Assembly: GCF_030813495.1 (NCBI RefSeq)
Contig: NZ_JAUSUI010000001.1
Span: forward strand, 620,001 to 684,000
Length of the DNA: 64,000 bases
DNA from: Ancylobacter polymorphus
GTDB taxonomy: Bacteria; Pseudomonadota; Alphaproteobacteria; Rhizobiales; Xanthobacteraceae
Direction: 5' to 3'
Of this stretch, positions 29,096 through 59,741 are shown one piece after another. Numbering within the stretch: the first letter of the stretch is position 1; every line of letters begins with the position of its first letter. A model generated the notes under the pieces. That model saw only the letters and a program-made list of their open reading frames with translations, did no database searches and was not told the origin of the DNA. The position numbers and the translations under genes were made by a program.

Positions 29096-29171
29096 TCCCT
29101 GATAGCTCAGTTGGTAGAGCGTTCGACTGTTAATCGAATGGTCGCAGGTTCGAGTCCTGCTCAGGGAGCCA
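29096..29171 (+). tRNA. tRNA-Asn (GTT), integration target of the island
   Basis: Acceptor TCCCTGA pairs with TCAGGGA. The D-arm is AGCTCAGTTGGTAGAGC, the anticodon arm TTCGACTGTTAATCGAA gives GTT, the T-arm is GCAGGTTCGAGTCCTGC, discriminator G, and CCA is encoded. Its last 14 bases are repeated with one mismatch at 53326-53339, which marks it as the attachment site of the mobile element that begins here. Confidence 0.97.
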
Positions 29172-29201
29172 CTCCCCCGTTTCCGGGGCGGCTCAGCTTT
29201 T
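29158..29201 (+). terminator. attL: tRNA-Asn 3' end plus its intrinsic terminator
   Basis: Directly at the tRNA end, GAGCC (29166-29170) pairs with GGCTC (29190-29194) and CCCC with GGGG, then AGCTTTT, a rho-independent terminator that overlaps the CCA end. The same block recurs at 53326-53366, so recombination at this site restores both the tRNA end and the terminator. Confidence 0.8.
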
Positions 29202-29372
29202 CCCAAATCAGTCTCCTACCCATTGAAATTGCTGGATAATTTGATTTCCAGCCTCCGCTCGCTGTCCCAACCGGGATCAGCCAGAGCCACCCCATCCCGC
29301 GAATTTGTTGGCCTTGTTGTTGGCCTACAGGCCGTGTTTTCGTGATTCCAGCAATCAGCAGGGATGGCGAAC

Positions 29373-30646
29373 ATGGCCTTGTCAGATGCAGCCTGCCGGA
29401 CGGCCAAGGGCTGGGAAGGCGAATACAAACTCTCCGACGGTAGCGGCCTCTATCTTTTCGTGAAGCCCAACGGCGCCCGGGTCTGGCAGCAGGCCGACAG
29501 ATTCGCGGGCAAACAGAAGAAACTCACCCATGGGCCTATCCGCTCATTTCGCTGGCCGGTGCGCGGCGGCTTCGGGACGAAGCCAAGAGGTTGTTGGCCT
29601 CGGGAGTAGACCCCGGAGCCAACAAACGAGCCAACAAGGCCGCCGTCGCGGCGTCTGTCGCAGCCGCGACGAGCACCTTCGGAGTCATTGCTACGGAGTT
29701 CATCGACAAGATGACGAAGGAAGGGCGAGCCGAGGCCACCCTCCTGAAAGCGCACTGGCTGCTGGAGGAAATCGCAGCCCCTCTTCGCAACCGCCCCATC
29801 GCCGAGATCACACCGCCGGAGATTCTTGCCGTCCTGCGGGTGGTGGAGGTCAAGGGGCACTACGAGACAGCGCGCCGCTCCCGCAGCATCACCGGTCAGG
29901 TCTTCCGTTACGCGATCGCAACCAGTCGCGCCGCACGGGATGTGACGGCCGATCTGCGAGGTGCGCTTATCGCGCCTACGACCAAGCACCGCGCCGCCAT
30001 CACCCGCCCGAAGCGGCTGGGTGAGCTTATGGCGGCCATCTATGGCTGGACGAAGGGTCAGGAGACGACGGTCGCAGGCCTGAAGCTGTTTGCCCTGCTG
30101 GCGCTCCGTCCCGGCGAACTCCGCGCCGCCACATGGGACGAGATCGACCTTGAAGCGGGAGTCTGGACCGTTCCAGCCAGCCGAACCAAGATGCGCCGAC
30201 CACACCGCACGCCCCTCCCCTTACAGGCCGTAGCCACCTTGGAAGAATTGCGCGGCGCCACCCGAAGCGGGATCAGTTCCTTCGTGTTTCCGGCGACCGC
30301 CTCGGTTAGGAAGCCGATGAGTGAGAACACTCTGAACTTCGCGCTACGCCGCCTGGATATAGGGGCGGAGGAAATGACCGCCCACGGTTTTCGGGCAGCA
30401 TTTGCCACGCTCGCCAATGAGAGCCGACGCTGGCATCCCGATGCGATTGAGCGGCAGCTCGCCCATGTTGAGGGCAATAATGTACGCCGTGCATATACCC
30501 GCGGCGAGCATTGGGACGAACGTGTGTTGATGATGCAGTGGTGGGCAGACGAGTTGGATCGGCTTCGAGAGGCGGCTATCGCGGAAGCCCGCATCCAAGC
30601 CCATCCCCAGGGCAGGCCCGCAAAGTTTCAATCAGTTCGCCAGTAA
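29373..30646 (+). pseudogene. Tyrosine-recombinase island integrase, frameshifted
   Basis: The reading MALSDAACRTAKGWEGEYKL starts a P4-type integrase with the N-terminal DUF4102 arm-binding domain. At 29532-29535 one G appears to be missing (CATGGGCC where CATGGGGCC would keep frame). The frame then continues as AYPLISLAGARRLRDEAKRL to the stop at 30646. The catalytic residues are all present: Arg in LRPGELRAATW, HGFR, the second His in QLAHVEGN and the Tyr in RRAYTRG. About 423 residues would be intact. An internal TTG at 29591 could start only the C-terminal part. Either the gene is broken, the base call is wrong, or it is read by frameshifting. The same defect occurs in the copy at 53.5 kb. 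Confidence 0.85.
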
Positions 30647-32945: not shown

Positions 32946-35903
32946 CTAGAGTCCAAGACCACGGCTGCGGTCAAAGTCGATGCCGTGGCTGTGGGCCAGT
33001 TCGCGACCAAGACTGCGGCCTGTGTTGAGGCTGATGCCGAGTTCCTTCCTATGAGCGGCGAGCAAGGATTCGAGTTGCGGGTCGCGCTCCAAGCTCCGCG
33101 CCATCTCGCCCATCTGGACGCGGGTTGCCTTGTAGCCGGCGTAGTCGCCTTGCGCGTACTGGTGCTGGTGCTGCCGGTCCAGCTTCTGCCAGCGCTCGAC
33201 AAATTGACCGGCGCGGCGCTCCGGATCGGCCCGGATTTCCGTTTCAAGCTGGAGGGCACGGATGGTGCGATTGAGCTTGCCGCCGGCCGCCTCATGCACC
33301 AGCTCCGGGTTCTTCTCATAGGCCGCTTCCGCATCCTGCCAGCCATGAGGGCGTACCTCGTCGAAGGCCTTGCGGGCCTCAGAGAGTTCGCGAACCTGCT
33401 CGGGCGTCCCCTGGCCGGTCGCGTCGGCCGTAGAGAGGATCGCGTCCCACGCACGGACATGCCGGACGAGCGCACGGCTTCGCGCCCGCCGCAGCACTGC
33501 TTCCGGATCGTCGGGAGGCTCCTGGGCGAGCGGCGCGGTCTTAGCTCCCACCTCTTCGCGCAGGACTGGCGCTTCCCGTGCCGTGTCCACGGACGGCTTT
33601 AGGGTGTCGACAAGGTCGCGCAACTTCTCCGGAACGTTGCGCACCATCTCCACGACGCGCTGGCGGAAGGTGATGCCGCGCCGCTCGGCAAAGTCCTGGG
33701 TGGGATCGGACCGCTCGTAATCCGACGCCATGTCCTTGGCCCGGTCACGCGACAGGATGCGCACCAGCCGGTCCCCATCGGCGAAGTCGTCGCGGCCATA
33801 GTGCAACTCCATGCCGTCGCGGTGGCGCGAGAGCGCGACATAGCTGGAATGGGCATCCATGCCGGGCGTGGCCAGCACATGGGTGCGGTCGACCGTCATG
33901 CCCTGCGCCTTGTGGATGGTGGCGGCATAGCCATGGTCGATGCGGTCGTAGTCCTTCAAGTCGAAGGCGACGGATCGGCCATCATCAATACGCACGGACA
34001 TGGACTGCGCGCTGACCTGCTCGATGGTGCCGAGCGTGCCGTTCTTCACCCCGAGCCCGCGCTCATTCTGCAGGAACATGACACGGTCGCCGCGGGCGAA
34101 GGAGCGTTCCCCGCGCTCCACGGTGACGCGCACCTCCTCGCCGAGATCACCGGCCTCCCGCATGCGTTCGCGGGAGGCCTGGTTGAGGGCGCGCACCTCG
34201 TCATTGGTGTGGGTGAGGATGATGCGGCTGCGGTCTGGTGCGGCCTGCCTGTCGCTATCCCAGCGATCGATCAGCTCGCCACGTGCCTGCTCGCGCGTTC
34301 GCGCGGCATGGACCATGCCGCCCCTGTCATAGGCCTGGATGGCCTCGCCGATCCGGCCGGTCGCCAGATCCCGCGTGGCGTCGCGCTGCCAGTCCTCGCG
34401 CTGGCGGCGTACCTCGCTGATCTCCGCACTGCCATGACGCTCAACGAGTGAACGGAACGCGGCACCCGCCTCGATCGATTGCAACTGCTGCGGATCGCCA
34501 ACCAGCACCACCTTGGCGCCAACTTCAGCGGCATGGGAGAGCACGCGCTCCAGCTGGCGCGTGCCGACCATGCCGGCCTCGTCGATCACCAGAACATCGC
34601 GTGAGGTGAGCAGATCCCGACCCTGCCCCCAGCCATGTTCGAGGCTGGCGATCGTTCGGGACGTGATGCCCGATCCGCTCTCCAGATTCTCCGCCGCGAT
34701 GCCGGACAGCGCGACGCCGCGAACCTCCAGGCCCGCCGCCTCCCAGGCCTCGCGCGCGACACCCAGCATGGCGCTCTTCCCCGTCCCGGCATAGCCGACG
34801 ACGATGCCGAGATCGCGCGTGCCGGTGATGTGCGCCAGCGCGTCTGACTGCTCGCCGGAGAGAACAAGCCCGTGCTCCTCGGCACCCGCCAGCGCCGCGT
34901 TCCTGTCAGCATCCTTCACCACATGGCGTTCGCGCTCGGCCATCAGCTCGGCGGCCCGGTGCAGGCGCTGCTCAGCCTCGATCATCTGCCGCGTGGTGAA
35001 GCGATCTTCGCCGCGTCTATCCTTGCCCAGCTCGACGAGATCGGGAGCACGACCCATCGCGCCCATCACCTCGTTGAACTGCTCGATCCCGTCTCTGTGG
35101 CGATGCGCGAAGCGCGTCATGTCGCGCCGGGTGAAGGTCGATTGCTGCTGAGTGATGGCATCCAGTGCCATCGACGGATCGGCGATGATGCGCGCGCCAT
35201 TGCCGCGCGCGATCTCCCGATGAACCTCCGCGCGATCGGCCGCCTCGATCCCCTCCGCTTCAATGCGCTGGGCGGGCGCGCCAATCTTGCTCTGCGGCTC
35301 CAGCGCGATGCCCTGAGCCTCCAGGCTGCGATGATCAATCCGCGCGTCGATATCGAGCTCGGCCAGACGCTCATTGGCAAGCTCCGCCCAGCGTGCGCGC
35401 CAGCGCTCCACCATCTGGGTCGCATTCCATTCCCGCACCTTCGGGCCGAAACCGTCCTCGTCAACCGAGCGCATGGTGAGCATGACTTGGGCATGGGGTT
35501 TGGCCATGCCGTCCTCACCCATATCCCAATGCACATTGAGATCGGCGACCATCCCCTGATCGACGAACTCCGCCTCAACGAAGTCGCGGGCGAGCGCTAT
35601 GCCCTGCGCCTGGCTCATCTCGCATGGCAGGGCGAACTCGACTTCGCGGGCGAGTTGCGCGTCCTTGCGCAGCTCGAAGGCTTCGACATCGTTCCAGAGC
35701 CGCTCGCGGTCGTGCCACGCCTCAGTCGCTCCGTCCGGCAGCAGCACCTCGGAATGCACGACGCCGCGCTTGCCGGAGAAGTCCTGGACGCGATCGATCC
35801 GCGTATCTCGCAGCCTTGAGGCCGAGCGATAAGCGGCGGACGCCACCGCGCTGGAGCCGGCCTTGCGGCCGATGATTTTGACGTGAAGATGATAGATCGC
35901 CAT
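32946..35903 (-). CDS. traA: Ti-type conjugative relaxase TraA (MobA/MobL nuclease fused to helicase)
   Basis: TraA nicks oriT and unwinds the transferred strand. The 985-residue protein starts MAIYHLHVKIIGRKAG, as in the MOBQ family. The HUH metal site is visible in DLNVHWDMGEDGMAKPHAQV (near residues 122-141). The helicase half has Walker A VGYAGTGKSAMLG, LVIDEAGMVGTRQLE (Walker B) and further superfamily I motifs such as YAATIHKAQGMTVDR. It is divergent from traC, with the presumed oriT between them, the Ti-plasmid arrangement. Agrobacterium TraA is about 1,100 residues, so the C-terminus is somewhat shorter. Confidence 0.93.
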   Translation of the reverse strand: MAIYHLHVKIIGRKAGSSAVASAAYRSASRLRDTRIDRVQDFSGKRGVVHSEVLLPDGATEAWHDRERLWNDVEAFELRKDAQLAREVEFALPCEMSQAQGIALARDFVEAEFVDQGMVADLNVHWDMGEDGMAKPHAQVMLTMRSVDEDGFGPKVREWNATQMVERWRARWAELANERLAELDIDARIDHRSLEAQGIALEPQSKIGAPAQRIEAEGIEAADRAEVHREIARGNGARIIADPSMALDAITQQQSTFTRRDMTRFAHRHRDGIEQFNEVMGAMGRAPDLVELGKDRRGEDRFTTRQMIEAEQRLHRAAELMAERERHVVKDADRNAALAGAEEHGLVLSGEQSDALAHITGTRDLGIVVGYAGTGKSAMLGVAREAWEAAGLEVRGVALSGIAAENLESGSGITSRTIASLEHGWGQGRDLLTSRDVLVIDEAGMVGTRQLERVLSHAAEVGAKVVLVGDPQQLQSIEAGAAFRSLVERHGSAEISEVRRQREDWQRDATRDLATGRIGEAIQAYDRGGMVHAARTREQARGELIDRWDSDRQAAPDRSRIILTHTNDEVRALNQASRERMREAGDLGEEVRVTVERGERSFARGDRVMFLQNERGLGVKNGTLGTIEQVSAQSMSVRIDDGRSVAFDLKDYDRIDHGYAATIHKAQGMTVDRTHVLATPGMDAHSSYVALSRHRDGMELHYGRDDFADGDRLVRILSRDRAKDMASDYERSDPTQDFAERRGITFRQRVVEMVRNVPEKLRDLVDTLKPSVDTAREAPVLREEVGAKTAPLAQEPPDDPEAVLRRARSRALVRHVRAWDAILSTADATGQGTPEQVRELSEARKAFDEVRPHGWQDAEAAYEKNPELVHEAAGGKLNRTIRALQLETEIRADPERRAGQFVERWQKLDRQHQHQYAQGDYAGYKATRVQMGEMARSLERDPQLESLLAAHRKELGISLNTGRSLGRELAHSHGIDFDRSRGLGL

Positions 35904-36628: not shown

Positions 36629-36938
36629 TGAAATTGTGGCGGTCCTGATCCATAGCTGCCGCTCTTCCGCGCTTTCAGAGACGTCCGCTTTGCGCCGCCA
36701 TTTCGGCCGTACAGATCGGATTGGCGATTTCTTGAAAGCAGAAGTTGCCGTTTACCGCTCCAGGTCATGGTTGCGCCAGCAGTCGATATTGCGCGAGCTC
36801 CAGCTTTCGGACGGCCAGCGGCCGGTCGTACGAGAGCGAGTCACCCGGCTATGCCGCTCGCGGCTGCATTGCACTCAGCGTCGCCGAGCGTAACCTTGCG
36901 TGGGGAACGGCGGGCAATTCACAGGAAGGATCCACGCC
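36629..36938. other. Gap after traD, no recognisable gene
   Basis: traG would be expected here. Short frames exist on both strands, none with a convincing start or similarity. It probably marks the deletion junction between the transfer genes and the following cargo. The last 40 bp contain the AGGAAGGA ribosome site of the next gene. Confidence 0.55.
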
Positions 36939-38135
36939 ATGTCGAATAAGCCGGACGAGCGCCTCGATCGCCGCGATTTCATGATCGCGTCCGTTGCAAC
37001 GATCGGCGCATCGGCCGGGCTCGTCGCCAACGCTGCCTCCGCCAGCGCCGAGGCATCGACGCAAAATGCTGCCGACCCTGCATCCGCAACGGTCTATACC
37101 GGCGATGTCATCCAGGGAAGAAAGGTTGTCAGCGCGCTCGACGTCCAGGACCTGGAACCGGGAAAGAAGCATCACCTGTACTTTCAGGGCGTCGAAATGC
37201 CCACCGGACAGCACTGGTATGTGTCCGTGACCGTCGCCAAGGGCGCGCGGCCGGGCAAGCGCGTTGTTCTCGTCAGCGGCGTGCATGGCGACGAGATGAG
37301 CTCCGTTCATACGGTCCAGACCCTTATGAATAGCCTTGATCCCGCGCAGATGTCGGGCGCGGTCATGGCCGTCACCGATGTGTCCCGCCCGGCCATGGAG
37401 GGCATGCAGCGCCGATGGCCCAATGCCGGCAGGGGTGCCGATCTGATCGACATGAACCGGGAATGGCCGGGCAATGAAAACGGCCTCACCGCCCCCAGCC
37501 GACATGCCGGCCTGCTGTTCAACCGACTGCTGCGGCCGAACGCCGATGCCGCCATCGACTTCCATACGGGAACAACCGGGTTCGAGGTCACCGCCTTCAA
37601 TATCGGCGGCATGGACGTGCCCGAGGTCAAGGCGATGGTGGAGCTCTACCCCGTCGGTCAGGTCTTCGACAATCACGTCTATCCGGGCGTGCTGCACAAC
37701 GCCTTCATGGACGTGGGCATCCCCGCCTTCACGCCGGAGATCGGCGCCGCCCGCGTGCTCGATCGCGGGATGATCGCGCTGTTCGTGGAGGGTACGATGA
37801 ACGTCCTCAAGCATCACGGCATCGTCGCCGGACCCATGGGACGGACGGGCAAGGATGTGAGCGTGTTCATCGGCAACAGCGCGTTCCCGATCGTGGCGAC
37901 GGAGGGCGGGCTCGTCGAGCATCTGGTCAGGCTCAACGACAAGGTCGAGCCCGGACAGAAGGTTGCCATCCAGCGAAACAGCTTCGGCGAGGTGGTGGCA
38001 GAATACATCAGCGGGGTGGCCGGAGAGGTGACCGGCCAGCGCAGCGACGCAATGGCCGAGCCCGGCAACCCCCTGGTGTTCATCCTGTTCCACAAGGATG
38101 ATGGTCCGGATCGGGCTGAGACTTATCCTGAGTGA
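36939..38135 (+). CDS. Tat-exported succinylglutamate desuccinylase/aspartoacylase family protein
   Basis: A zinc carboxypeptidase-fold hydrolase of 398 residues. The N-terminus has a twin-arginine signal, DRRDFMIASVATIGASAGLV, ending near ASA, so it should be exported folded by the tatABC system. The zinc site of the AstE/AspA family is visible: VSGVHGDEMSSVH (His and Glu) and AAIDFHTGTTGFE (second His). The natural substrate, an N-acyl or amide compound, cannot be told. It has a good AGGAAGGA ribosome site at its ATG. The convergent neighbour is a broken amidohydrolase, suggesting a former degradation module. Confidence 0.85.
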   Translation: MSNKPDERLDRRDFMIASVATIGASAGLVANAASASAEASTQNAADPASATVYTGDVIQGRKVVSALDVQDLEPGKKHHLYFQGVEMPTGQHWYVSVTVAKGARPGKRVVLVSGVHGDEMSSVHTVQTLMNSLDPAQMSGAVMAVTDVSRPAMEGMQRRWPNAGRGADLIDMNREWPGNENGLTAPSRHAGLLFNRLLRPNADAAIDFHTGTTGFEVTAFNIGGMDVPEVKAMVELYPVGQVFDNHVYPGVLHNAFMDVGIPAFTPEIGAARVLDRGMIALFVEGTMNVLKHHGIVAGPMGRTGKDVSVFIGNSAFPIVATEGGLVEHLVRLNDKVEPGQKVAIQRNSFGEVVAEYISGVAGEVTGQRSDAMAEPGNPLVFILFHKDDGPDRAETYPE

Positions 38136-38319
38136 CGGCCCCGCATTGGCAGTGTGGTCGGTAAAGGGCTCGATGCGGGGTGCTTGGTCCGCCAGTGCTG
38201 CACGCGCCAGGAGCGATCGTCGTCGCGCCAGGCACGCGATGTCCGATCGAGAGCTTCCGTCCATTGCGGCATTCGTCGATGAAACTGGTTCATGTCGATC
38301 GAACTTGGTCCGGGCCAAT

Positions 38320-39269
38320 CTAAAGGCGCAGCAGCCTTTCCGCATTGCCGTGGCAGACCTTCGCGCGGACGTCCTCTCCGATCGCGCGGATTCGATGAAG
38401 TCGGAGGCGACCTGCGGATCCTCATAGGGGTAGTCGACCGAGAACATCACATTGTCTTCGCCCAACGCCTGAAGCGTCGCGATCAGTGCTCCCGGGTCAC
38501 ATACGCCCGAGGTGGTGACGGCGATGTTGCGTTTGATGATCGCCGAGGGAAGGGCGTCCGGCGCGAGCGTCTCGCCGAGATCGAATTCCCTTCTGCTGTC
38601 GAGGCGCCAGAGCAGGAAGGGCAGTGTCTCGCCCATATGGCCGAGAATGATCTTCGCCTTGGGAAAGCGGGTGAGTGTTCCGCCGAAGACAAGCCGCAGT
38701 GCATGGGTTGCGGTCTCGGCCGTCCAGGCCCAGATCGGACCACCGATTTCGGGGCGATGGGCGAACATGGCCGGATGGTCGGCCATGGCGCCGGGATGCA
38801 GATAGACCGGGACGTCCAGTTCCTCGACACGCTCCCAGAAGGGCAGATAGCGGTCCTCGTCGAGATAATGCCCGTTGGTCTGGCCGTTGATGAGCGCTCC
38901 CCGGAGACCGAGTTGCCGGACGGCACGTTCGAGTTCGGCCGCAGCGGCCTCGGCATCCTGCAGGGCGAGATGAGCAAAGCCGGCATAGCGATCGGGCCGC
39001 TTCTGAACCTCGCGCGCAAGGAAATCATTGGCGCTGTGGGCGAGCCGGATGGCTTCCTGCGTATCGCCCATGCCCTGGACCCCCGGCGTGGTGACCGAGA
39101 GCACCATCAAATCAATGCCGGTTCGGTCCATCATCTCAAGCCGCACCTCGTCGAAGTCGGACAGGCGACGTTCGACATCCGCAAAAAGCGCGTCGCTCCG
39201 GGTCGGTCTTGCCACGTATTTCCCGAGCTCAGGGGTAGTGAAATGCTCTTCAAGCGCGATCTTGCGCAT
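38320..39269 (-). pseudogene. Amidohydrolase/gamma-resorcylate decarboxylase-like, frameshifted near its end
   Basis: The translation MRKIALEEHFTTPELGKYVA resembles 2,6-dihydroxybenzoate decarboxylases of the ACMSD clan. Metal ligands are recognisable in ALEEHF, VYLHPGAM, ILGHMGETLPFLLWR and SVDYPYEDP. At about 38385 one base is missing (CGCGCGG where CGCCGCGG would keep frame). The intended end, AAIGEDVRAKVCHGNAERLL then RL and TAG at 38320, is read in the next frame. Only about the last 24 residues are affected, so it may be a sequencing error or a recent mutation. A GAGGAGCGG ribosome site precedes ATG 39269. Confidence 0.8.
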
Positions 39270-39316
39270 GTGCCGCTCCTCTATGATTGCCGCTGTCGAA
39301 TGGCGCCGCCATCCGA

Positions 39317-39886
39317 TTATGGCTTGGGAGCGGGGCACGCCTCGGCGGGCGATTTGGTGATCTTGAGCTGATCCATCATGAAATCGGCGTTGCTTCTGGA
39401 GTCGGCCAGGAGGGCACCCGACCAGTATGCTGTCTTGCAGGTTGCGGCGTCGCAATCGCCGCCCGCGGTCTGCCATTCGCCCGTGCGGACCACGTCGCAC
39501 GCGCAGATCGCCTTGTCAGGGTTGGCGGGATCCACGGTGCAGATCTTGTTGAGACACTGCGACCAGGGCGTGCCGCTTTCGCATTTCAGCCCCTTCTTGC
39601 CCTGTTCGAACTGGGTGAGAGCGAACTGCGAATAGACCGTACGAACACCCTCCGCGTCCGTGCTTGGCTTGACCGTGTCACAGGCGACCGTCGCAAGGTT
39701 CGGCCCTTCCTGCACGTCGCAGACGCAGATCGAGATGTCGGGGTTCCCCGGCTGCGGAATGCAGGGCGCCGAGGTGCACAGGGCGAATTGCTGATTGCAG
39801 AGATAGTTCTTCGCCGCCGCAGGCTGCGCGAGGCCAAGGGCCATTCCCAGAATGGCGAGCCCGAAGCCCAAAATCATTGAGCGCAT
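39317..39886 (-). CDS. Secreted Cys-rich protein with an internal duplication
   Basis: A 189-residue precursor with a signal peptide (MRSMILGFGLAILGMALGLA, cleavage after AAA). The mature part contains two related halves, each with a run of cysteines ending in CxC: around CIPQPGNPDISICVCDVQEG and around CTVDPANPDKAICACDVVRT. In total it has about 14 Cys, which in the periplasm would form disulfides. I do not recognise the family or function. The start at 39886 follows a G-rich ribosome site containing nine consecutive G residues, a likely spot for slippage. Confidence 0.7.
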   Translation of the reverse strand: MRSMILGFGLAILGMALGLAQPAAAKNYLCNQQFALCTSAPCIPQPGNPDISICVCDVQEGPNLATVACDTVKPSTDAEGVRTVYSQFALTQFEQGKKGLKCESGTPWSQCLNKICTVDPANPDKAICACDVVRTGEWQTAGGDCDAATCKTAYWSGALLADSRSNADFMMDQLKITKSPAEACPAPKP

Positions 39887-40244: not shown

Positions 40245-40635
40245 CATGGGCCACTTTCAATATGATGATGTCAGCCGCGAGCGCGCAGCTTGGAACGCCG
40301 GCAAGAACGTGGGAACGAAACGTGCGCTCACGCAGAAGCAGTCCGGGCCGTTCGCTTCTTTCTCGATCGTGAGCGCCGCATTCGTGACCGTGCTTTGTTC
40401 GACCATGCGCTAGACAGCCAGCTTCGCGGTTGCGACCTGGTCAAGATCACGATCGTAATGTCGTCGCCGGATCGGAGGTCAGAACCCGAGCGATCGTCAT
40501 TCAGCAGAAGACCGGTCGTCCCATCCAATTCGGCGGTTCTGCCATGGCTTCAGCCTTTGCGTGACATCCGGACGAACATCTTCCCTGCCTGCCGCATCGG
40601 CGCCCTTGGTGAACGGCGCCCACAATCGAGCGGCT
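40245..40635 (+). pseudogene. Second tyrosine recombinase, multiply frameshifted remnant
   Basis: Three frames read in succession recall a short (about 200 aa) alphaproteobacterial phage-type integrase: NVGTKRALTQKQ (frame of ATG 40245), then AVRFFLDRERRIRDRALFDH and ALDSQLRGCDLVKI, then VVAGSEVRTRAIVIQQKTGR and PIQFGGS. At least two frameshifts separate the pieces and the catalytic C-terminal half is missing. It abuts the arcC stop codon and may mark an older junction inside the island. Confidence 0.75.
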
Positions 40636-41542: not shown

Positions 41543-42544
41543 TCAGCTCCCGATGGTGGCGACGAGAAGCGCCTTGATGGTGTGCATGCGGTTCTCGGCC
41601 TGGTCGAACACGATGGAGGCCGGGCTCTCGAACACCTCGTCCGTCACCTCCATGCAATCGAGGCCGAATTTGGCCTTGATCTGCGCCCCCACCTCGGTTT
41701 TGTCGTCGTGGAAAGCGGGCAGGCAGTGCATGAACTTGGCGTAGGGATTGCCCGTCTTAGCCATCGCCGCCGCATTGACCTGGTAGGGCTGCAAAAGGGC
41801 GATGCGCTCGGCCCAGCGCGCTTCCGGCTCGCCCATGGAGAGCCAGACGTCGGTGTAGACGAAATCGGCGCCACGGCAGCCGACATCGACGCTTTCGGTC
41901 ACTGTTAGCGTGCCGCCCGTCGCGGCGCCGATCGCGGCGATATGGGCGCGAAATCCCTCGTCGGGATGCAGGGCGGCCGGCCCGCACAGCCGCACGTCCA
42001 TCCCCATCTTCACGCCACCCAGCGCCAGCGAACGGGCGACGTTGTTGCGCGTGTCGCCCATGAACACCACGGCCATGTCGGAGAGGTGCTTGTGGGTGAA
42101 TTCGCGCATGGTGAGGAAGTCCGCCAGCGTCTGCGTCGGGTGGAACTCGTCGGTCAGGCCGTTATAGACCGGCACCCCGGCGAAGGCGGCGAGTTCTTCG
42201 ACGATCGACTGGCCGAAGCCGCGATATTCGATGGCGTCATAGATCCGGCCGAGCACGCGGGCGGTGTCCTTCATGCTCTCCTTGTGGCCGATCTGGCTGC
42301 CCGAGGGGCCGAGATAGGTAACGTGCGCCCCCTGGTCATAGGCGGCGACCTCGAAGCCGGTGCGGGTGCGGGTGGAATCCTTTTCGAAAATCAGGGCGAT
42401 GTTCTTGCGCAGCAGATGCGGCACCTCGGTGCCGGCGAGCTTGGCCGCCTTCAGCTCGGCCGAAAGCCGCAGCAGATGGCGGATCTCGGCCGGCGTGAAG
42501 GGCTCCAGGCTGAGCACGCTGCGTCCGCGGAAATTGATCGGCAT
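41543..42544 (-). CDS. arcB: Ornithine carbamoyltransferase, catabolic
   Basis: ArcB splits citrulline with phosphate into ornithine and carbamoyl phosphate. The 333-residue product shows the carbamoyl-phosphate motif [27 protein letters not shown] and the ornithine-binding MHCLPAFHD. Its length and FEKDSTRTR sequence fit the catabolic ArcB/OTC type rather than short anabolic ArgF. Gene order (arcD-arcA-arcB-arcC) sets the catabolic direction. Confidence 0.95.
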
Positions 42545-42554
42545 GGCACTCTCC

Positions 42555-43802
42555 TCAAAGCGGGTCGCGCTGGATCGGGCAGGTCATGCAGTGGCCGCCG
42601 CCGCGCCCGCGGCCGAGCTCCGAGCCTTCGATGGTGATGACCTCGACCCCCGCCCGGCGCAGCCGGGTGTTGGTGTAGACATTGCGGTCATAGGCGATGA
42701 CCACGCCGGGCTCGATGGCGACGACATTGTTGCCGTCGTCCCACTGCTCGCGCTCGGCCTCGAACTCGTCGCCGCCGGTATCGATCACGCGCAGTGCGTT
42801 GAGCCCCAGTGCGTCGCGCACCACGTCGAGGAAGCCCGCCCGCTCCTCGGTGATGGCGATATCGCCGTTCTGGCTGCCCGGCGTCACCGTGAAGGTGCGC
42901 AGGCGGCTTACCACTGGCGGATAGGCGGTGGCGATGTCCGGCCCGCACAGGGTGAAGACCGTGTCGAGATGCATGAAGCTGCGGTCGCGCGGCATCAGCG
43001 CGGCGATGACCCGCTCCACCGCTCCGGTCGCCAACAGCCGCCGTACCAAATGGGACACCGCTTGCGGCGTGGTGCGCTCGCCCATGCCGATCAGCACCGT
43101 GCCGCCGCCGACCGGCATCACGTCGCCGCCTTCGAGCGTGGAGAGGCCGGGAGCGAGGCCCCCGCCATCGCCTTCGCCGTCAACGGCGTCGTCGGGCCGG
43201 ACCTCGAAGGCCTTCTCGGCGAAAAGGCCATGGAAGCGGTAGATCGCCTCCATGTGGATCGTCTCCGGCCGCCGTGCCGGCCAGTACATGGCGCCAAGAC
43301 ACAGGCCGCCATAGATCCAGCAGGAGCTGTCGCGGGTGAACAGGTGGTTGGGCAGGGGCGGCAGCACGAAATCGGACGGTTCCAGGCTGGCGGCGAGAAG
43401 GCCCGCCGACATAAAGGGCAGTTCGGCCTTGGCGATGCCGCCGATGAGCAACTCGGCCAGCTGGCGCGAAGGCATTTCGGAAAGCCAGGCGCGCAGATCG
43501 GCTAGCATTTCGGCGTCGAAATCCGACACCGGCAGGCGATGGTCGAGGATCCAGAGGCGGCCGATCGGATCGTCAAGCACCTCGGCCAGCAATTCGGTCA
43601 GCTCCAGCACCTCGACGCCGCGATCCCGCATCGTGTCGACAAAGGCGTCGTGTTCCTGCCGGGCCTTCTTTACCCACAGCACATCGTCGAACAGCAGGGT
43701 GCGGCAGTTGGACGGGGTGAGGCGACGCAGTGCCAGATCGGGCCGGTTGACCAGGACGCGGCGCAGCCGTCCGGCCTCGGAGTGAACGCCAAGGGGGGCC
43801 AT
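42555..43802 (-). CDS. arcA: Arginine deiminase
   Basis: ArcA hydrolyses arginine to citrulline and ammonia. The 415-residue enzyme ends [19 protein letters not shown] with the catalytic Cys in [21 protein letters not shown] and MHLDTVFTL supply other guanidinase-family active-site residues. It is 10 bp from arcB and 19 bp from arcD, so the operon is tight. Confidence 0.96.
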
Positions 43803-43821
43803 TTGTCTGTTCTCCTGCCGA

Positions 43822-45297
43822 TCAAAGCGGGCTGATGACGCCGGTGGCGATCAGATAGGCGGCGAGCCCGCCGGCGGTGACGATGGCGAGGGCCAGCACC
43901 ACCTCCAGCGGGGTGAACACGCGCTTGTCCTGCTCGCGGCGGGCCCAGATGTAGACCAGGATACCGGGCGCATAGAGCATGGCGCACATGAACAGGAAGG
44001 TCGGGCCGGCCGCGTAGACCAGCCAGGCGCCATAGATCGTCGCCACCGCGCCGGTGAAGATGTCGCGCCCCGTGGTTTCGCCGGCGCCGTAGCCGTCGCG
44101 GGTCAGGGCGATCTTCAGCGCATAGGCGCCCGAGAGCACATAGGGCACGAGGATCGCGGCCGAGGCGATGAGGAATAGCGCCTGATAGGTCGAGTTGGCG
44201 AAATAGGTGATGATGAGGAAGAGCTGGACCAGCCCGTTGGTGAGCCACAGCGAGACCGAGGGTGAGCCCTTATCGTTCTCGGTGGCAAGCAGCTTCGGCA
44301 TGGTGCCGTCGCGCGCCGCCATCATCGGGATCTCGGCGGCCAGCAGCGTCCAGGACAGGAAGGCGCCGAGCACCGACACCACCACGGCAAGGTTGATGAG
44401 CGCGCCGCCCCAGGGGCCGACCACATGCTCCATCACCACCGCCATGGACGGGTTCTTCAGCCCGGCGAGCTCGGGCTGCGTCATGATGCCGAGCGAGAGC
44501 AGGGACACCAGCGCATAGAGCCCGAGGCAGATGAGGAAGCCGGACACCGTGGCGAAGCCGATATCGGACCGCTTGTTCGCACGCGCCGAGACGACGCTCG
44601 CCCCCTCCACGCCGATGAACACCCACAGCGTCACCAGCATGGTGCTCTTCACCTGCGCCAGCAGGCTGCCGAGTTCGGGATTGCTGACGCCCGAGAAGTC
44701 GAGCGTGAAGACGTCGAGATTGAACGCCAGCGCGGCGACGACGATGAACAGGACGATGGGGGCGATCTTGGCGATGGTGGTGATGAAATTGGTGATCGCC
44801 GCCTCGCGCACGCCCATCAGGATCAGCGCATGCACCGCCCACAGCATGAGCGAGGCGCCGACGATGGCAGCAATGGTGTTGCCCTCGCCGAAGGCCGGCG
44901 CGAAATAGGAAAGCGCTGAGAACACGATCACCGCATAGGAGACGTTTCCGATCCAGGCCGAGAGCCAGTAGCCCCAGGCCGAATTGAATCCGACGAAGTC
45001 GCCGAACCCGGCCTTGGCATAGGCATAGGGGCCGGAATCGAGCCCCGGCTTGCGGATCGCGAGACGCTGATAGACGAAAGCCAGTGCAATCATCCCGATG
45101 CCGGTGATGACCCAGCCGATGAGGATCGCCAACGGGCCGGCCCCGGCCGCCATGTTCTGCGGCAGGCTGAACACGCCTGCACCGACCATCGAGCCGATGA
45201 CAAGGGCGGTGAGCAGGCTGCGGCTGAGCTTTGCCGACTGGGTTGTACTGGTCGTCGTCGCGGATTTGATCTGGCTGCCGTGGTCGATGGACGTCAT
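43822..45297 (-). CDS. arcD: Arginine:ornithine antiporter (APC family)
   Basis: ArcD imports arginine in exchange for ornithine, so the pathway runs without spending energy on uptake. The 491-residue membrane protein has about 12-13 hydrophobic helices and the basic-amino-acid antiporter start [20 protein letters not shown], then [15 protein letters not shown]. It is the first gene of arcDABC, with a GGGAGGG ribosome site. An FNR/FixK-type palindrome is centred 69 bp upstream of the ATG. Confidence 0.92.
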
Positions 45298-47552: not shown

Positions 47553-48578
47553 ATGCCGGCCGCCCCCCTGACGCCGCGCTACGCGGCGACCGCCGCTTTT
47601 GCACCGATGGTGCTCTTCGCGCTGGCCGGAAGCGACGCGATCGGCCGCGCGGTTGCCGGCCATCTGGGAATCGACCTTGCGGCGCATGAGGAGCGGGAAT
47701 TCGAGGATGGCGAACACAAGGCCCGGCCGCTCGCTCGCGTAGCGGGAGCCGACGTCTATGTGCTGCACAGCCTGCATGGCGGCCCGCAGGCCAGCACCGA
47801 CGACAAGCTGTGCCGCCTTCTGTTCTTCCTTGCCGCGGTCAAGGATGCCGGCGCGGCACGGGTTGCGGCGGTCCTGCCATACCTATGCTACGCACGGAAG
47901 GACCGCCGCACCAAGCCCAACGATCCGGTCACGACACGCTATGTCGCGGCCTTGTTTGAAGCCGTTGGCACGGACACCGTGGTCGCGCTGGAAGTGCACA
48001 ATGAGAGCGCCTTCGAGAATGCATTCCGCTGCCGTTCGGTGGCGCTGAGCGCGGCGCCACCGCTTGTCCAGAAGGTTCTGCCGCTGCTCGGCGACGAACC
48101 GCTCTGTGTCGTGTCGCCCGACCTCGGCGGCGGCAAGCGGGCCGACCTTTTTCGCGAGGCGCTGCAAGCGGTCATTGGCCGGCCGGTCGGCAACGCCTTC
48201 GCCGAGAAGCACCGCAGCGCCGGCGTCGTGTCCGGCGAGCTTTTCGTCGGCGACGTGCAAGGCGCCACCTGCATCATTGTCGATGACCTCATCAGCACCG
48301 GCGGGACGCTGGTGCGCGCCGCACGGGCGGCGCGCGAGGCTGGTGGCCGGCGGGTGATCGCCTGCGTTGCGCACGGGCTGTTCATGGCCGGCGCCGCCGA
48401 AGCACTCGTCGATCCGGCGATCGAGCGGATCATCACCACCGACAGCGTGCCGCCCTTCCGTCTGCCCGTCGGTGCCGTGCGCGAGAAGCTCGACACGGCC
48501 GACGCGGCACCGCTCCTCGGCGAAGCGATCCGGCGCCTGCATGCGGGTGAAGCGCTGACCGACCTCATGGCATTCTAA
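47553..48578 (+). CDS. Ribose-phosphate pyrophosphokinase-like protein
   Basis: The PRPP synthetase family makes 5-phosphoribosyl diphosphate from ribose 5-phosphate and ATP. The 341-residue protein has the ATP-loop-like AAVLPYLCYARKDRRTKPND, the VVSPDLGGGKRADLF segment and the PRPP-binding loop CIIVDDLISTGGTLVRA. It is longer and more divergent than housekeeping Prs, and the N-terminal 18 residues may be untranslated if ATG 47607 is used. It lies 31 bp after usp and is convergent with the phosphotransferase gene (14-bp overlap at the ends). A specialised, possibly hypoxia-linked paralogue is inferred from context. Confidence 0.88.
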   Translation: MPAAPLTPRYAATAAFAPMVLFALAGSDAIGRAVAGHLGIDLAAHEEREFEDGEHKARPLARVAGADVYVLHSLHGGPQASTDDKLCRLLFFLAAVKDAGAARVAAVLPYLCYARKDRRTKPNDPVTTRYVAALFEAVGTDTVVALEVHNESAFENAFRCRSVALSAAPPLVQKVLPLLGDEPLCVVSPDLGGGKRADLFREALQAVIGRPVGNAFAEKHRSAGVVSGELFVGDVQGATCIIVDDLISTGGTLVRAARAAREAGGRRVIACVAHGLFMAGAAEALVDPAIERIITTDSVPPFRLPVGAVREKLDTADAAPLLGEAIRRLHAGEALTDLMAF

Positions 48579-53539: not shown

Positions 53540-53781
53540 ATGGCCTTGTCAGATGCGGCGCGCCGGACAGCCAAGGGCCGGGAAGGCGAATACGAACTTT
53601 CCGACGGTGGTGGCCTTTATCTTTTCGTGAAGCCCAACGGCGCCCGGGTCTGGCAGCAGGCCGACAGATTCGCGGGCAAACAGAAGAAACTCACCCATGG
53701 GCCTATCCGCTCATTTCGCTGGCCGATGCGCGGCGGCTTCGGGACGAGGCCATGCTCGGTGACCAGCAAATGCCGGTTTGA
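53540..53781 (+). pseudogene. 5' remnant of a second island integrase
   Basis: MALSDAARRTAKGREGEYEL and SDGGGLYLFVKPNGARVWQQ match the left integrase almost residue for residue. The same single-base deficit follows KKLTHG (CATGGGCC at 53697-53704). The frame then reads AYPLISLADARRLRDEA and ends in MLGDQQMPV and TGA. Only the DUF4102 part remains; the catalytic domain is gone. Confidence 0.85.
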
Positions 53782-53915
53782 CTCAAACCAAATGGCCTCC
53801 GGTCAATCCGGGGAGGTCCATTTTCACCACGCTAGACCGGACTGGAATGGGTTCGCTACCGTGGCGTCGGACCCAATCGCCGGTGCCAAACGTGCCCTGC
53901 CCGCCGTTCAGCGCG

Positions 53916-54395
53916 TCAGGGTGCGTTCTCGTTGACGCAATCGGTCAGGCGGATCATCGCCTTTTGCGCGTCGCGGAGGTTCCACTTGAGCTCACGGTTG
54001 CCGATCCAGACTTCGATTGTGCGGGCCGTTTCGAAAAGCTGCGACATGTCCCAGCTCATCGTCATCCAGGCGCGGTCCCGATCGGATGAGAAGCGGAAAT
54101 ATTCCGGCTGTTCGTCATTGAAGCCGACGGTCACGTCGTCGCCATTCCTGTGACCCTGGGCCGGGACCGAGAGGCTGAAATCCGGCCCCTTGCCGTTATG
54201 GGCGACCCGCAGCACCTTGCCGTTCTGGTTGGTCTCGATGATGCAACGGTTGAAACTGTTGTCATTGTTGCGGTTCAAAATCACGCGCCAGCCCCCGATG
54301 GTGGCCAATACGCGCTCGCCCGCCAGGGATGGCACAGGCGCCATGTGAAGACTGAATGCGGCAAGCGCCAGCAGCAAATGGGCAGGTCTTTTCAT
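53916..54395 (-). CDS. Secreted protein of unknown function
   Basis: A 159-residue precursor with a signal peptide (MKRPAHLLLALAAFSLHMAP, cleavage after SLA). The mature domain is about 135 residues and beta-rich (RVLATIGGWRVILNRNNDNS, FRFSSDRDRAWMTMSWDMSQ) with two Cys, one near each end, that may form a disulfide. Family not recognised. Start at 54395 chosen for the signal peptide; ATG 54437 is upstream and unlikely. Confidence 0.65.
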   Translation of the reverse strand: MKRPAHLLLALAAFSLHMAPVPSLAGERVLATIGGWRVILNRNNDNSFNRCIIETNQNGKVLRVAHNGKGPDFSLSVPAQGHRNGDDVTVGFNDEQPEYFRFSSDRDRAWMTMSWDMSQLFETARTIEVWIGNRELKWNLRDAQKAMIRLTDCVNENAP

Positions 54396-54764
54396 GATCT
54401 CTCTCGCAGAAAGGGGCGCGCGCAGAAGGCTGGTCACTCAAAGCGGCTTGTTCAATTATTAACTACTAGGGTACCGTGAACAAAGCCACGGTCAAGCGGT
54501 TCAGGCGCCCGGTGTCTCACCGGAACAGCGCATCGCAGCCCCCCTTGCCGACCTCACTCTCCTCCGTCGGCGCGTGGCGTCGATTCCCGGCAGAACCGCC
54601 CTTGAACGGTATCAGGGAACGTGCAAGATCGGTGCTCAGTGCCCCCGTAGCCAAAGCTGACGACAGATCCGTCCCCCTTCGGGTCGGCGAGGTCTATCGA
54701 TGCCCAGGCCGCGTCGGAATGCCGTCCACGCACGCTCCCTCCCTCCCCTTTGCCCGGTCAGTCC
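54396..54764. other. Gap between divergent genes, no feature recognised
   Basis: About 370 bp. Short frames on both strands have no support. It should carry both promoters; a low-GC patch (CAATTATTAACTACTAGGG) lies close to the minus-strand gene. Confidence 0.5.
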
Positions 54765-55529
54765 ATGAACACACGCCTGGTCAAAATCCTTCTTGCCATG
54801 GTCGCCGTTGTGGCCGCTGCTGGAACAGCGCGGGCCGAGGGCGAGCTTCTCTACAAATGCGGCGGCGATCTCGGCTTTGTCGTCGAGACCCATCCCGAGA
54901 ACAGCAGTGGTAACTTTCATGGCACCTTCAGCGCGCCGCTCGTGCCCGATGGCAAGGGCGCCTGGGTGAATCCCGGCCGTGAATTGCAGTTCTGGCCGGA
55001 AGGCGACGGGCCGAAGCTTTTCGTTGGTGTCGAGGAGTTCTCCTGCGAGCCCGTCGCCGACGAGCCCGGCATGAAGGCCGGCGCCGAGCCGGCCGACACA
55101 GCCTCGCCGACCACCGCCGATCTGGAGATGGTGCCCTATGGCTCCACGCGCGGATGGGAAGTCGTCTCGCTGATTGCGGGGCCGGATTTTGTCGGCTGCG
55201 CCGGGTCGATCAGCCATCCCGCCGGCTTCCTGATCCTGCAGAAAAAGACGCATGGCTGGGAACTGCGCGTCCCTGCGGACCAGACGGAAGGGTTTGAGGG
55301 GGGCATCATCACGCTCGACGGACGCCGCGTGGATGCCCAGTTCGGCTTTACCCCTGAAGGCGCGGGCGAGGCGGGGTTGGACGATCGCTTCGTCGCCGCC
55401 CTCCGGAACGGCAAATTGCTGACCACCCAGATCAACGGCGCGAGGCCGGTCAAATGGCAGCTGACAGGTTCGGCAGCCGTCGTGACCAAGATCGAAGAAT
55501 GCTTCAAGCGCCAGGGCCTGCTTCCCTGA
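54765..55529 (+). CDS. Secreted protein of unknown function
   Basis: A 254-residue precursor with a signal peptide (MNTRLVKILLAMVAVVAAAG, cleavage after ARA). The mature part opens EGELLYKCGGDLGFVVETHP and has four Cys spread as two likely pairs. No recognised domain. The start MNTRLV is chosen over an ATG 15 nt upstream because it begins the signal peptide. Likely periplasmic. Confidence 0.65.
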   Translation: MNTRLVKILLAMVAVVAAAGTARAEGELLYKCGGDLGFVVETHPENSSGNFHGTFSAPLVPDGKGAWVNPGRELQFWPEGDGPKLFVGVEEFSCEPVADEPGMKAGAEPADTASPTTADLEMVPYGSTRGWEVVSLIAGPDFVGCAGSISHPAGFLILQKKTHGWELRVPADQTEGFEGGIITLDGRRVDAQFGFTPEGAGEAGLDDRFVAALRNGKLLTTQINGARPVKWQLTGSAAVVTKIEECFKRQGLLP

Positions 55530-55649
55530 TCGCCATCGGCCCGGCAGGCGGATGATCGCCGAAAAAGACGGCCATCCGGCGAGCCGCCACGGCTGCGCCG
55601 GGTGATGGCCCACTGCGTTGGGCTCCTCGCGGCGCGACAGCAGCCTGAT

Positions 55650-55965
55650 GGGCGGACGAGCAGAAGTGCGGCCGCCCTCCGAGCGGCTCGGCAAGGACGT
55701 GGCGAGGTTCGGAATTCGGGTAACCGCGCCCGCAGCCGGCCAATTCCTCACCGATTGGGCCGGAGGCTCGATGGAGCGCACGCCCCGCGCCATTGCCGGC
55801 GATGACGCGGTATTGGATCCGCTCACGCGCGGCGTGGCACGCCAAGAGCGGCAGTCAGCACGGGCAATCCGACCAAGGCCGCGCAGGCATTGCCAGCTCT
55901 GGTCGATACCGAGAACCCGCCGGTGCCGCTGTCCCTGAGCCAGACGCCCTGGGGCTGGGCTGGCG
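55650..55965 (+). pseudogene. C-terminal remnant of a short-chain dehydrogenase/reductase
   Basis: In one frame SERLGKDVARFGIRVTAPAA then GQFLTDWAGGSMERTPRAIA resembles the SDR region after the active site (typically FGIRVTAVEPGQFRTDWAG). After about 55855 the next frame gives GNPTKAAQALPALVDTENPP, the usual SDR C-terminal helix. The catalytic YxxxK part is absent and at least one frameshift is present, so the gene is dead. Confidence 0.7.
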
Positions 55966-56018
55966 GAACCTTCCCGTTCACCAATTGTTAACGAGTGTTG
56001 CAACGGGAGACTGCCCCC

Positions 56019-56237
56019 ATGCTCGCGCGCAAATTCGACGTGGACTCGTCCAGCATCGCCTTCGACCGGCAGCGCGGTCATCTCGCGATGACCCTGCGCC
56101 CGCTGATTCCTGCCTATGACGAAGCCGCCGCCCTCGCCCATGGCTGGGGCGTCATGGCCGGGTGCCCCGATGTCCGCCGGCTCGTGGTCAATCTTGAGGT
56201 CGATGCACGGCTCGCTCCCGTTCGGCACATGGCCTGA
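56019..56237 (+). CDS. Small protein of unknown function
   Basis: A 72-residue frame starting MLARKFDVDSSSIAFDRQRG with GGGAG about 8 nt upstream. No signal peptide or membrane helix, no recognised family. It lies 54 bp before the DUF883 gene and may be co-transcribed. Moderate doubt remains because it is short. Confidence 0.4.
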   Translation: MLARKFDVDSSSIAFDRQRGHLAMTLRPLIPAYDEAAALAHGWGVMAGCPDVRRLVVNLEVDARLAPVRHMA

Positions 56238-56291
56238 AGCGGAACCCGCTCCGCCGCCGCGCGTTTGTCCATCTCCCATCAGGAGTGAAAC

Positions 56292-56621
56292 ATGGCCACG
56301 TCCACCGAACTCGCCGCCCTCTCTAAGGATCTCGAAGCCCTGCGCCGCGATGTCGCGAAGCTCGCCGGCTCGCTGGCAAGCCAGGGTGGCGCCAGTGTGA
56401 GCCGCTATGCCCGCGAATATGCCCGCCGGGGTGCCTCGCGGGCCGGGGCCGCGCTGGATTATGCCGCCGATGGCAGTGCAGATTTCCTTGAAGACGCCAG
56501 CGAGCGGGCGCGCCACGCGGCTGACGAGGTCGCCGCGCAGGTGCGCCGTCATCCCGCCATCGCCTTTGCCGGCCTGCTCACCATCGGCCTGGTCGCCTAT
56601 CTGATGTCCGGCCGCCGGTGA
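56292..56621 (+). CDS. DUF883 (ElaB/YqjD-like) membrane-anchored protein
   Basis: A 109-residue protein: charged N-terminal coiled coil (LAALSKDLEALRRDVAKLAG), an Ala/Arg helix, and a C-terminal membrane helix with the family ending HPAIAFAGLLTIGLVAYLMS GRR. E. coli relatives bind ribosomes and sit at the inner membrane in stationary phase. The ATG has a CAGGAGTG ribosome site. No operon partner with a known link. Confidence 0.88.
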   Translation: MATSTELAALSKDLEALRRDVAKLAGSLASQGGASVSRYAREYARRGASRAGAALDYAADGSADFLEDASERARHAADEVAAQVRRHPAIAFAGLLTIGLVAYLMSGRR

Positions 56622-56849
56622 GGCGCTGTGACGCCCGCGTGGCAGCGCTCGCGCCGCCAGCCGGGCGTCACCTCGCGGGCGCCGCCTAAGGGTCGAGCGC
56701 TGAACCTCCTGCGGAAACGGTCGCGTGCCGCACCGCAGCGCGCGCAAGCCTGCCACAAGCCTCCCCCGCCAGATGTTGGCACGCTTCCAATATGAGGAGC
56801 GAGCAGGCTCCAGGCGCCGCCCTGTGCCTCACAGACGCCGGGGTGCCGC

Positions 56850-57263
56850 ATGACGCTCAACTGGAAACTCAAGGCAGCTGCCGCCGCCGCAATCGTCATC
56901 GGCGGCGGTCTGTTTTTGCGCGGCGAGGATGCGACAACGAAGGCGCAACTGACCTGCGAGCGCCATATCGAAACGACGACGAACCACGACCTGAGCGAGG
57001 ACGAAGTCGCCTCGCTGCGGGTCCATGCGGATGCCACGAATGGTAAGGTCCAGGGCGCTTTTTTCCGTGCGGGTGTCCTGCGCTATGCCATCTGCGAATT
57101 TGAGGATGGCCAGCCCAAGCGCGTCAGCGTGGACGGCAGTGCATGGCCCGATGTCGATCAAACGCTGATCCGCCGGCTGAACATCTCCAATGTGCCGCGT
57201 GGCGCCACAGACGACGCCCCCGCGTCTCCGAGCCCGGCGCCGGCGCCGGCGCCGCATGGCTGA
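56850..57263 (+). CDS. Small membrane-anchored or secreted protein, unknown
   Basis: A 137-residue protein with an N-terminal hydrophobic helix (LKAAAAAAIVIGGGLFL) acting as anchor or signal, a globular part with two Cys (LTCERHIETTTNHDLSED, LRYAICEFEDGQPKRVSVDG), and a Pro/Ala tail with PAPAPAPHG. Start MTLNWKLK. Family not recognised. Convergent with the small basic protein gene 6 bp away. Confidence 0.6.
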   Translation: MTLNWKLKAAAAAAIVIGGGLFLRGEDATTKAQLTCERHIETTTNHDLSEDEVASLRVHADATNGKVQGAFFRAGVLRYAICEFEDGQPKRVSVDGSAWPDVDQTLIRRLNISNVPRGATDDAPASPSPAPAPAPHG

Positions 57264-57269
57264 CGCCTT

Positions 57270-57446
57270 TTAACGCTTGCGGTCGCCGCGATTGCCCTCG
57301 CCGGGCTTGGCCTCGTGCTCGGCCTGCTTGCGCCGATCCTGGCTCAGCGAGCGGCCGACATCGACGGATTCCTTGAATCGCCCCGCTTCGTCACGGCGGA
57401 CATAACGCTTGTCGGTCCCGGTATCGATCAGTTCGCGCTTGGTCAT
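57270..57446 (-). CDS. Small basic conserved protein
   Basis: A 58-residue hydrophilic protein, MTKRELIDTGTDKRYVRRDE then AGRFKESVDVGRSLSQDRRK, with a Lys/Arg/Gly tail. I have seen this pattern as a conserved small protein of unknown role in rhizobia and relatives. A GGGAGG ribosome site stands in front of ATG 57446. It lies 87 bp downstream of hypE on the same strand. Confidence 0.72.
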   Translation of the reverse strand: MTKRELIDTGTDKRYVRRDEAGRFKESVDVGRSLSQDRRKQAEHEAKPGEGNRGDRKR

Positions 57447-57533
57447 TTCTGGCCTCCCTGAGAGGCGACACATGCCGCCTCTGAGGGCCAACGGGCGAAT
57501 CGCCCCGCAGGTTCCGCGCCACCCCACGCGGCA

Positions 57534-58595
57534 TCAGCAGATGCGTGGCAGCTGGTCGCCGACCAGCATGTCGACGATGCGCTCGCCGCCGAAGCGGGTC
57601 TCCATCACCACGCGGCCGGGCCGGGTGTCGGTGATACGCCCGATGGCGGCAGCACCGCCCCCCAGCGGATGCGCGCGCAGCGCCTGCAAGGCCGCACCCT
57701 CCTGCTCGGGCGGCACCACGGCGACGATCTTGCCCTCATTGGCGAGATAGAGCGGATCGAGCCCCAGAATCTCGCAAAAGCCCTGCACATCCGCGCGAAT
57801 CGGCGTGTCGCTCTCGCGCAGGCGCACGCCGACGCCGCTCGCCGCCGCCAATTCGTTGAGCACGGCGGCGACGCCGCCGCGCGTGGCGTCGCGCATCATC
57901 CGCACGCCGGGTGCGGCGTCGATGAGCCTGTCGATCAACCCGTGCAGCGCGGCGCAGTCGCTGGCGATGTCGCTTTCCAGCGCCAGATCGCCGCGCGCAT
58001 TCAGGATCGCCGCGCCGTGGTCGCCGAGCTGGCCGTTCACCAGCACGACATCGCCGGGCCGGGCGCGCGCGATGCCGACCTCGACCCCGGTGCGGACCAC
58101 GCCGATGCCTGTCGTGGTGATGAACAGCTTGTCGCAGGCGCCGCGCGCCACGACCTTGGTATCGCCGGTGACGATCGGCACGCCTGCCGCCCCGGCGGTC
58201 TCGGCCATGGAGCGCGCCACCGCACGCAGCGTGTCGAGCGCCAGCCCCTCCTCGATGATGACGGCGCAGGACAGCGCCACCGGCCGCGCCCCGCCGACCG
58301 CGAGATCGTTGATGGTGCCGCAGACCGCGAGCTTTCCGATATCCCCGCCGGGAAAGAACAGCGGGTCGACGACGAACCCGTCGGTGGTGAAGGCGAGCCG
58401 GTCGCCCTGTGCCATCAACGCGGCGAGATCGAAGCGGGCCTGATCCTCCGGAGCGCCTTTCGTGCCCTTGAACGTCTCGATGAACACCTCGTCGATGAGG
58501 TCGCGCATGGCGCTGCCGCCGCCGCCATGCGCCAGCGTGACCGCTTTCGGCAGGTTGCGCCGGGGCGCGGTAAGGACGGGAATGGGCGGGTTCAT
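57534..58595 (-). CDS. hypE: Hydrogenase maturation protein HypE
   Basis: HypE dehydrates the carbamoyl group on its C-terminal Cys to thiocyanate, the source of the CN ligands of the [NiFe] site. The 353-residue protein has AHGGGGSAMRDLI, FTTDGFVVDPLFFPGGDIGKL, GDTKVVARGACD (ATP-binding PurM-like fold) and ends PRIC with the required terminal Cys. The start MNPPIPVLTAP overlaps the hypD stop by 4 bp. It is the last gene of the hup/hyp run in this window. Confidence 0.96.
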   Translation of the reverse strand: MNPPIPVLTAPRRNLPKAVTLAHGGGGSAMRDLIDEVFIETFKGTKGAPEDQARFDLAALMAQGDRLAFTTDGFVVDPLFFPGGDIGKLAVCGTINDLAVGGARPVALSCAVIIEEGLALDTLRAVARSMAETAGAAGVPIVTGDTKVVARGACDKLFITTTGIGVVRTGVEVGIARARPGDVVLVNGQLGDHGAAILNARGDLALESDIASDCAALHGLIDRLIDAAPGVRMMRDATRGGVAAVLNELAAASGVGVRLRESDTPIRADVQGFCEILGLDPLYLANEGKIVAVVPPEQEGAALQALRAHPLGGGAAAIGRITDTRPGRVVMETRFGGERIVDMLVGDQLPRIC

Positions 58596-59728: not shown

Positions 59729-59741
59729 CACGCAACTCCGC

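Follow-up and report, generated by a model that had tools for sequence, protein, structure and literature searches.

A one-base deletion shared by an island integrase gene and an older integrase remnant at tRNA-Asn of Ancylobacter polymorphus, probably spread by gene conversion

A genomic island adjoining a tRNA-Asn gene in Ancylobacter polymorphus carries a tyrosine integrase gene whose reading frame is broken by the loss of a single base, and the same loss is present in a 5′ integrase fragment located 24167 nucleotides further along the chromosome. The two sites lie within tracts of 108 bp that are identical to each other, and none of the 11 relatives of the genus whose sequences span the site has the shortened form. 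Most probably, a private and recent inactivating deletion in the island integrase has been spread between this gene and an older remnant by a short gene conversion. The outcome looks like ordinary gene decay rather than a programmed frameshift. The window analysed here is a stretch of 64,000 nucleotides (contig NZ_JAUSUI010000001.1, positions 620,001 to 684,000), whose numbering is used throughout; related genomes and loci are cited by their G and L numbers where they must be told apart.

The island measures about 24 kb between two exact 19-bp direct repeats that begin at 29165 and 53333 (Table 1), a match for which the chance expectation is a mean of 0.02 occurrences. On its sequence features it is a putative integrative mobilizable element (IME) at tRNA-Asn. 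An integrase gene, now out of frame, adjoins the tRNA target, the repeats bound the element, a relaxase of the MobA_MobL family (32946-35903) is predicted to serve in mobilization, and an empty site is represented in the congeneric genome G219, which is free of the island and carries a remnant. A scan covering part of the island open reading frames revealed no conjugation genes among those scanned.

Table 1. Positions of the tRNA-Asn target, the island features and the two integrase copies in the window.
Feature	Start	End	Strand	Basis or remark
tRNA-Asn (GTT)	29096	29171	+	ARAGORN; integration target, 3′ end within direct repeat
Direct repeat, left copy (attL-like), 19 bp	29165	29183	+	Exact; spans the tRNA-Asn 3′ end and just past it
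Left tyrosine integrase, frame broken	29364	30646	+	Pfam Arm-DNA-bind_3, Phage_int_M, Phage_integrase
108-bp left/right-identical tract, putative gene-conversion tract, left side	29451	29558	+	0 differences
Second rare change in tract, conserved Tyr codon to Asp (G)	29496	29496	+	Alignment columns
Frameshift site, GGGCC versus GGGCCC in relatives	29532	29536	+	Alignment, frame check, pattern search
Fic/DOC-family protein, island backbone	30928	32487	+	Pfam Fic, E 4.7e-13
MobA/MobL-type relaxase with helicase domain, backbone	32946	35903	-	Pfam MobA_MobL, E 9.8e-68; AAA_30, E 1.1e-58
Conserved island right end	52538	53339	n/a	91.5% / 94.0% identity to the right end of G211 / G264
Direct repeat, right copy (attR-like), 19 bp	53333	53351	+	Same exact match
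Right copy, probable 5′ remnant of older integrase	53540	53752	+	No homology to left beyond 53752; G219 has the orthologous remnant with its flanking chromosome
108-bp tract, right side	53618	53725	+	Left tract shifted by the spacing of 24167

The Fic-family gene and the MobA/MobL relaxase both reside on the left side of the island. This left part also occurs in related genomes. In G211 and G186 it can be followed without interruption, at about 90% identity, from a point upstream of tRNA-Asn as far as about 36.5 kb, whereas G264 has it as two blocks meeting near 29 kb and G195 as pieces. Between the common left part and the right end lies cargo that includes genes for an amidohydrolase (36849-39500), and for an arginine deiminase and an ornithine carbamoyltransferase, which form a cluster with an amino-acid permease gene (41543-45297). 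The cargo also holds a ribose-phosphate pyrophosphokinase-like gene (47553-48578), and a tRNA-Ser (GCT) is located within the island at 40463-40535.

The tRNA-Asn locus (29096-29186) is a recurrent target in the genus, with intact, truncated or mutated integrases following it in L004-L009, L011 and L016. A second remnant (L138) is found in G186 at a distance of about 20 kb. In G195 (L007) the integrase match stops early, at the equivalent of window position 30592, and about 15 kb further on the backbone of the element starts again, which suggests a second insertion there.

At the DNA level, the whole genome contains exactly two matches to the left integrase gene, the left and right copies themselves. 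A preliminary description of this DNA had spoken of two integrase copies, which is accurate for the left one, full-length though broken in frame; the right one is only a 5′ fragment, its homology ending at 53752. Pfam places the arm-domain match of the left gene at 29364-29609 and the remaining integrase in a different frame up to 30646. The gene is 93-94% identical to those of four genus relatives over about 1250-1306 bp, one of these relatives having a cut 3′ end. Downstream of the site, the changes private to the left branch comprise 20 synonymous and 8 non-synonymous substitutions and no stop, yielding a pN/pS of 0.14. Intact relatives exhibit values of 0.12 (L004), 0.17 (L005) and 0.12 (L006), a comparison from which L007 was excluded (pN/pS 3.13, one stop), its match ending near 30592 and its last codons probably being non-homologous. 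Because this ratio resembles those of intact relatives and no further stop is present, the left gene evolved under constraint through most of the time since its branch separated, and it was probably broken recently. As the frame is lost inside the arm domain, the product is presumably inactive.

The claim that the same frameshift occurs in both places proved correct: both copies read CATGGGCCTATCC, the right one at 53699-53703, and both break the integrase frame. The missing base, however, is not the G that had been reported. Five genus relatives read GGGCCCTATCC, the difference between the window and these relatives lies in the C run, and the protein of intact relatives reads HGPYPLISLA, not HGAYPLISLA. 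An alignment of homologues, which the preliminary description had recommended, shows an extra base in close homologues, which is half of what that description had named as refuting its claim, but this base is a C.

A 551-bp query around the site matched 24 of the 30 genomes of the genus, a set that includes the window's own. Nineteen loci entered the frame check, among which two are the window's own and 11, from 11 other genus genomes, pass the site in one frame, the G219 remnant being one of them. The remaining six (L120, L121, L122, L124, L138 and L142) do not reliably span the site; where L120-L122 seem to cross it, the alignments are gapped or due to chance. One weak additional match, in the other frame of the right copy, was left aside. 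Upstream of the site, L118 is interrupted by an in-frame stop and L125 by a break in the frame. The G272 integrase (L118 / L008), with its in-frame stop in the arm domain and about 255 bp missing, represents independent decay of the same gene.

A search of the 30 genus genomes with the exact pattern gave the window genome (G000) as the sole carrier of the shortened form, in two places, while the longer form was found in five of the other 29 and no exact match in the remaining 24. Among 80 distant relatives, a set that overlaps the genus set by one (L033 is the G186 locus), 77 have an uninterrupted frame of 40 codons or more that begins at a start codon upstream of the equivalent of window position 29537. 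The other three (L049, L100 and L103) are broken elsewhere, by an A run a few codons upstream or, in two cases, by in-frame stops. Plasmid and phage searches returned weak matches alone (3 and 4 records, respectively), which fall in the 3′ part of the gene and leave the site uncovered, and the exact pattern had no match in viral contigs. An order-wide scan of 397 genomes recovered the pattern in the window genome alone, a result that is little informative since the sample held no other genome of its genus. Because the deletion is absent from the 11 genus relatives that span the site, it is most likely private to this lineage and arose after both copies existed.

The history of the right copy is illuminated by G219, in which an integrase remnant directly follows tRNA-Asn and is itself followed by chromosome, the island being absent. 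This remnant is 87.8% identical to the right copy, and the chromosome after it matches window positions 53740-60000 at 90.4%. Pairwise alignment reveals that both genomes continue beyond the integrase part with a common downstream sequence, although about 97 bases that are kept by G219 are missing from the window copy. In a tree of the flanks, the right copy pairs with the G219 locus (L009; bootstrap 90) and not with the left copy. Most simply, the right copy is the orthologue of the G219 remnant, and since G219 has the remnant without the island, the island probably landed later, between the tRNA gene and the old remnant.

The left and right copies had been described as differing at many nearby positions. 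This holds for the flanks, where differences are present at 44 of 285 positions upstream (24/139 plus 20/146) and 2 of 27 downstream, but not at the site itself, where none is found among 108. Overall the copies differ at 47 of 421 columns, and random placing of these differences produced a clean run of at least 108 in about 1 in 10,000 trials (p = 1e-4); for the coding part alone, with 13 differences in 222 columns, p = 0.0016. Both probabilities presume even variability along the sequence.

The tract also contains a second rare change, the conversion of a conserved Tyr codon to Asp. Among the aligned sequences, the Asp codon is common to the left copy, the right copy and the G219 remnant only. 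Tyr occupies the matching position in 76 of 80 distant relatives when read at a fixed offset, the exceptions being L049 (E), L060 (R), L073 (I, where the offset is wrong because the match starts later) and L098 (F). States that are common to left and right and lacking in all of L004-L007 occur at two tract sites, the deletion and 29496, and at one flank site, 29408, whose state is present also in L008, L009 and L011.

Low divergence within the tract is not peculiar to the left/right pair. The right copy differs from intact L005 and from L007 by one substitution plus the indel per 108 positions, and from the G219 remnant (L009) by nine differences, and an earlier exchange could account for part of the tract identity. 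Left and right pair in the tract tree only, where supports are weak (30-67), and outside the tract they group with different relatives. An identity tract with diverged flanks and a switch in phylogeny, even with weak tract supports, fits the earlier suggestion that gene conversion spread the defect.

We propose the following course of events. An older element would have left a decayed 5′ integrase fragment at tRNA-Asn, after which a newer element, whose integrase was then intact, would have inserted between the tRNA gene and the fragment, as the arrangement in G219 indicates. Later, a one-base deletion would have arisen in one of the two copies, and a short homologous exchange, a gene conversion of at most about 108 bp, would have carried it together with the Tyr-to-Asp change into the second copy. 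Transfer from the remnant to the island integrase appears somewhat more likely than the reverse, a weak lean, because the Tyr-to-Asp change also exists in the G219 remnant and in no other aligned relative. This direction requires that the remnant tract was free of private substitutions. Transfer from the integrase to the remnant would explain a remnant tract without private substitutions, but requires an independent Tyr-to-Asp change in G219.

An assembly artefact is an unlikely alternative. Only one copy might truly carry the deletion, the unconstrained remnant being the easiest candidate, with the assembler having merged near-identical 108-bp stretches and so entered the deletion in both. 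Such merging would be consistent with a tract about as long as a short read, with a genome that is a draft of 22 contigs, and with a left gene that looks constrained apart from its break. However, both copies are situated inside one 851-kb contig with distinct flanking variants on each side, and no join is marked in the sequence itself.

It is very improbable that two independent one-base deletions struck the same short C run. Integrase decay is indeed common at tRNA-Asn, as illustrated by damaged or cut genes in G272, G195, G203, G253 and G151 (C15) and by the second copy in G186, but none of these copies owes its damage to this one-base loss. Moreover, the C run comprises only three bases in relatives, and the second rare change is also common to both tracts.

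Programmed frameshifting relies on a slippery heptamer of the form X XXY YYZ, usually accompanied by a stimulatory structure. That a programmed shift or an internal start still permits a full or core integrase to be made here is scarcely credible, despite a downstream frame without further break, a catalytic domain that matches Pfam, the left-branch pN/pS of 0.14, and the precedent of programmed frameshifting in the excision control of a Mesorhizobium ICE (in the available part of PMC5882170). A frame break at the site occurs in none of the 11 genus and none of the 80 distant relatives, no such heptamer is present in the 0 frame (CAT GGG CCT), the downstream RNA fold is ordinary (z -1.57), and the truncated right copy has almost no downstream gene to fuse to. 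The first listed start in the new frame, TTG at 29591, would sacrifice the arm-domain part. On these grounds both a programmed frameshift and an internal start were rejected. A literature search found no paper on a programmed frameshift in a tyrosine recombinase or integrase of genomic islands, and PMC5506516 was set aside as an integrase precedent, the frameshift in its available text being in tail genes.

That the defect is older than the divergence of the two copies, an idea from which the preliminary description derived a functional shift, is largely refuted. On this view the island would have arrived already broken and been moved by another integrase, for which the genome offers three further loci whose Arm-DNA-bind_3 matches are near full-length and whose open frames span 484-516 codons, but this is hardly tenable given that the short form is absent from the orthologous G219 remnant and from the 93-94% identical integrases of four genomes, so that several restorations would be needed, and that the left and right flanks are not sisters in the tree.

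The preferred reading, a private deletion spread by short gene conversion, removes a false lead toward programmed frameshifting in an integrase. It also provides a small, clean case of possible mobility loss, with an intact-type integrase, a remnant that has an orthologue, and a break limited to a short tract. One might speculate further, though we consider it rather improbable, that old integrase remnants at tRNA genes serve as a permanent template from which gene conversion inactivates the integrase of any related island that arrives later, thereby fixing the island. If true, this would constitute a passive route to island domestication, and conversion from resident remnants, should it happen often, would offer a general mechanism for the fixation of accreted islands.

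Several known systems resemble this case in part. In the Mesorhizobium symbiosis ICE, a programmed frameshift fuses two frames of a regulator to give FseA, according to the available part of PMC5882170. As far as that text describes it, FseA shares with our case a frameshift in an alphaproteobacterial mobile-element gene that bears on excision; here, in contrast, the integrase itself is broken, privately, and a slippery site is absent. Redundant gene fragments also exist in an Azorhizobium ICE, which the accessible portion of PMC9601964 does not describe as integrase copies. Accretion of IMEs and CIMEs next to resident remnants at tRNA genes (PMC5704250, as excerpted) is a closer parallel. The common features are a tyrosine integrase at a tRNA 3′ end, a MobA/MobL-type relaxase and integration next to a remnant that occupies the same tRNA site. 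Our case differs in its resident remnant, which amounts to no more than a 5′ piece of an integrase gene, and in the inactivating change that this remnant has in common with the incoming integrase. Finally, interlocus (ectopic) gene conversion leaves copies that have otherwise diverged with a short stretch of identity (PMC3924818, in the part available), and just such a stretch is observed here. That system concerns diverged duplicates, whereas here the putative partners are the integrase of an island and a remnant older than it, and the integrase ends up out of frame. The kind of event is an ordinary one.
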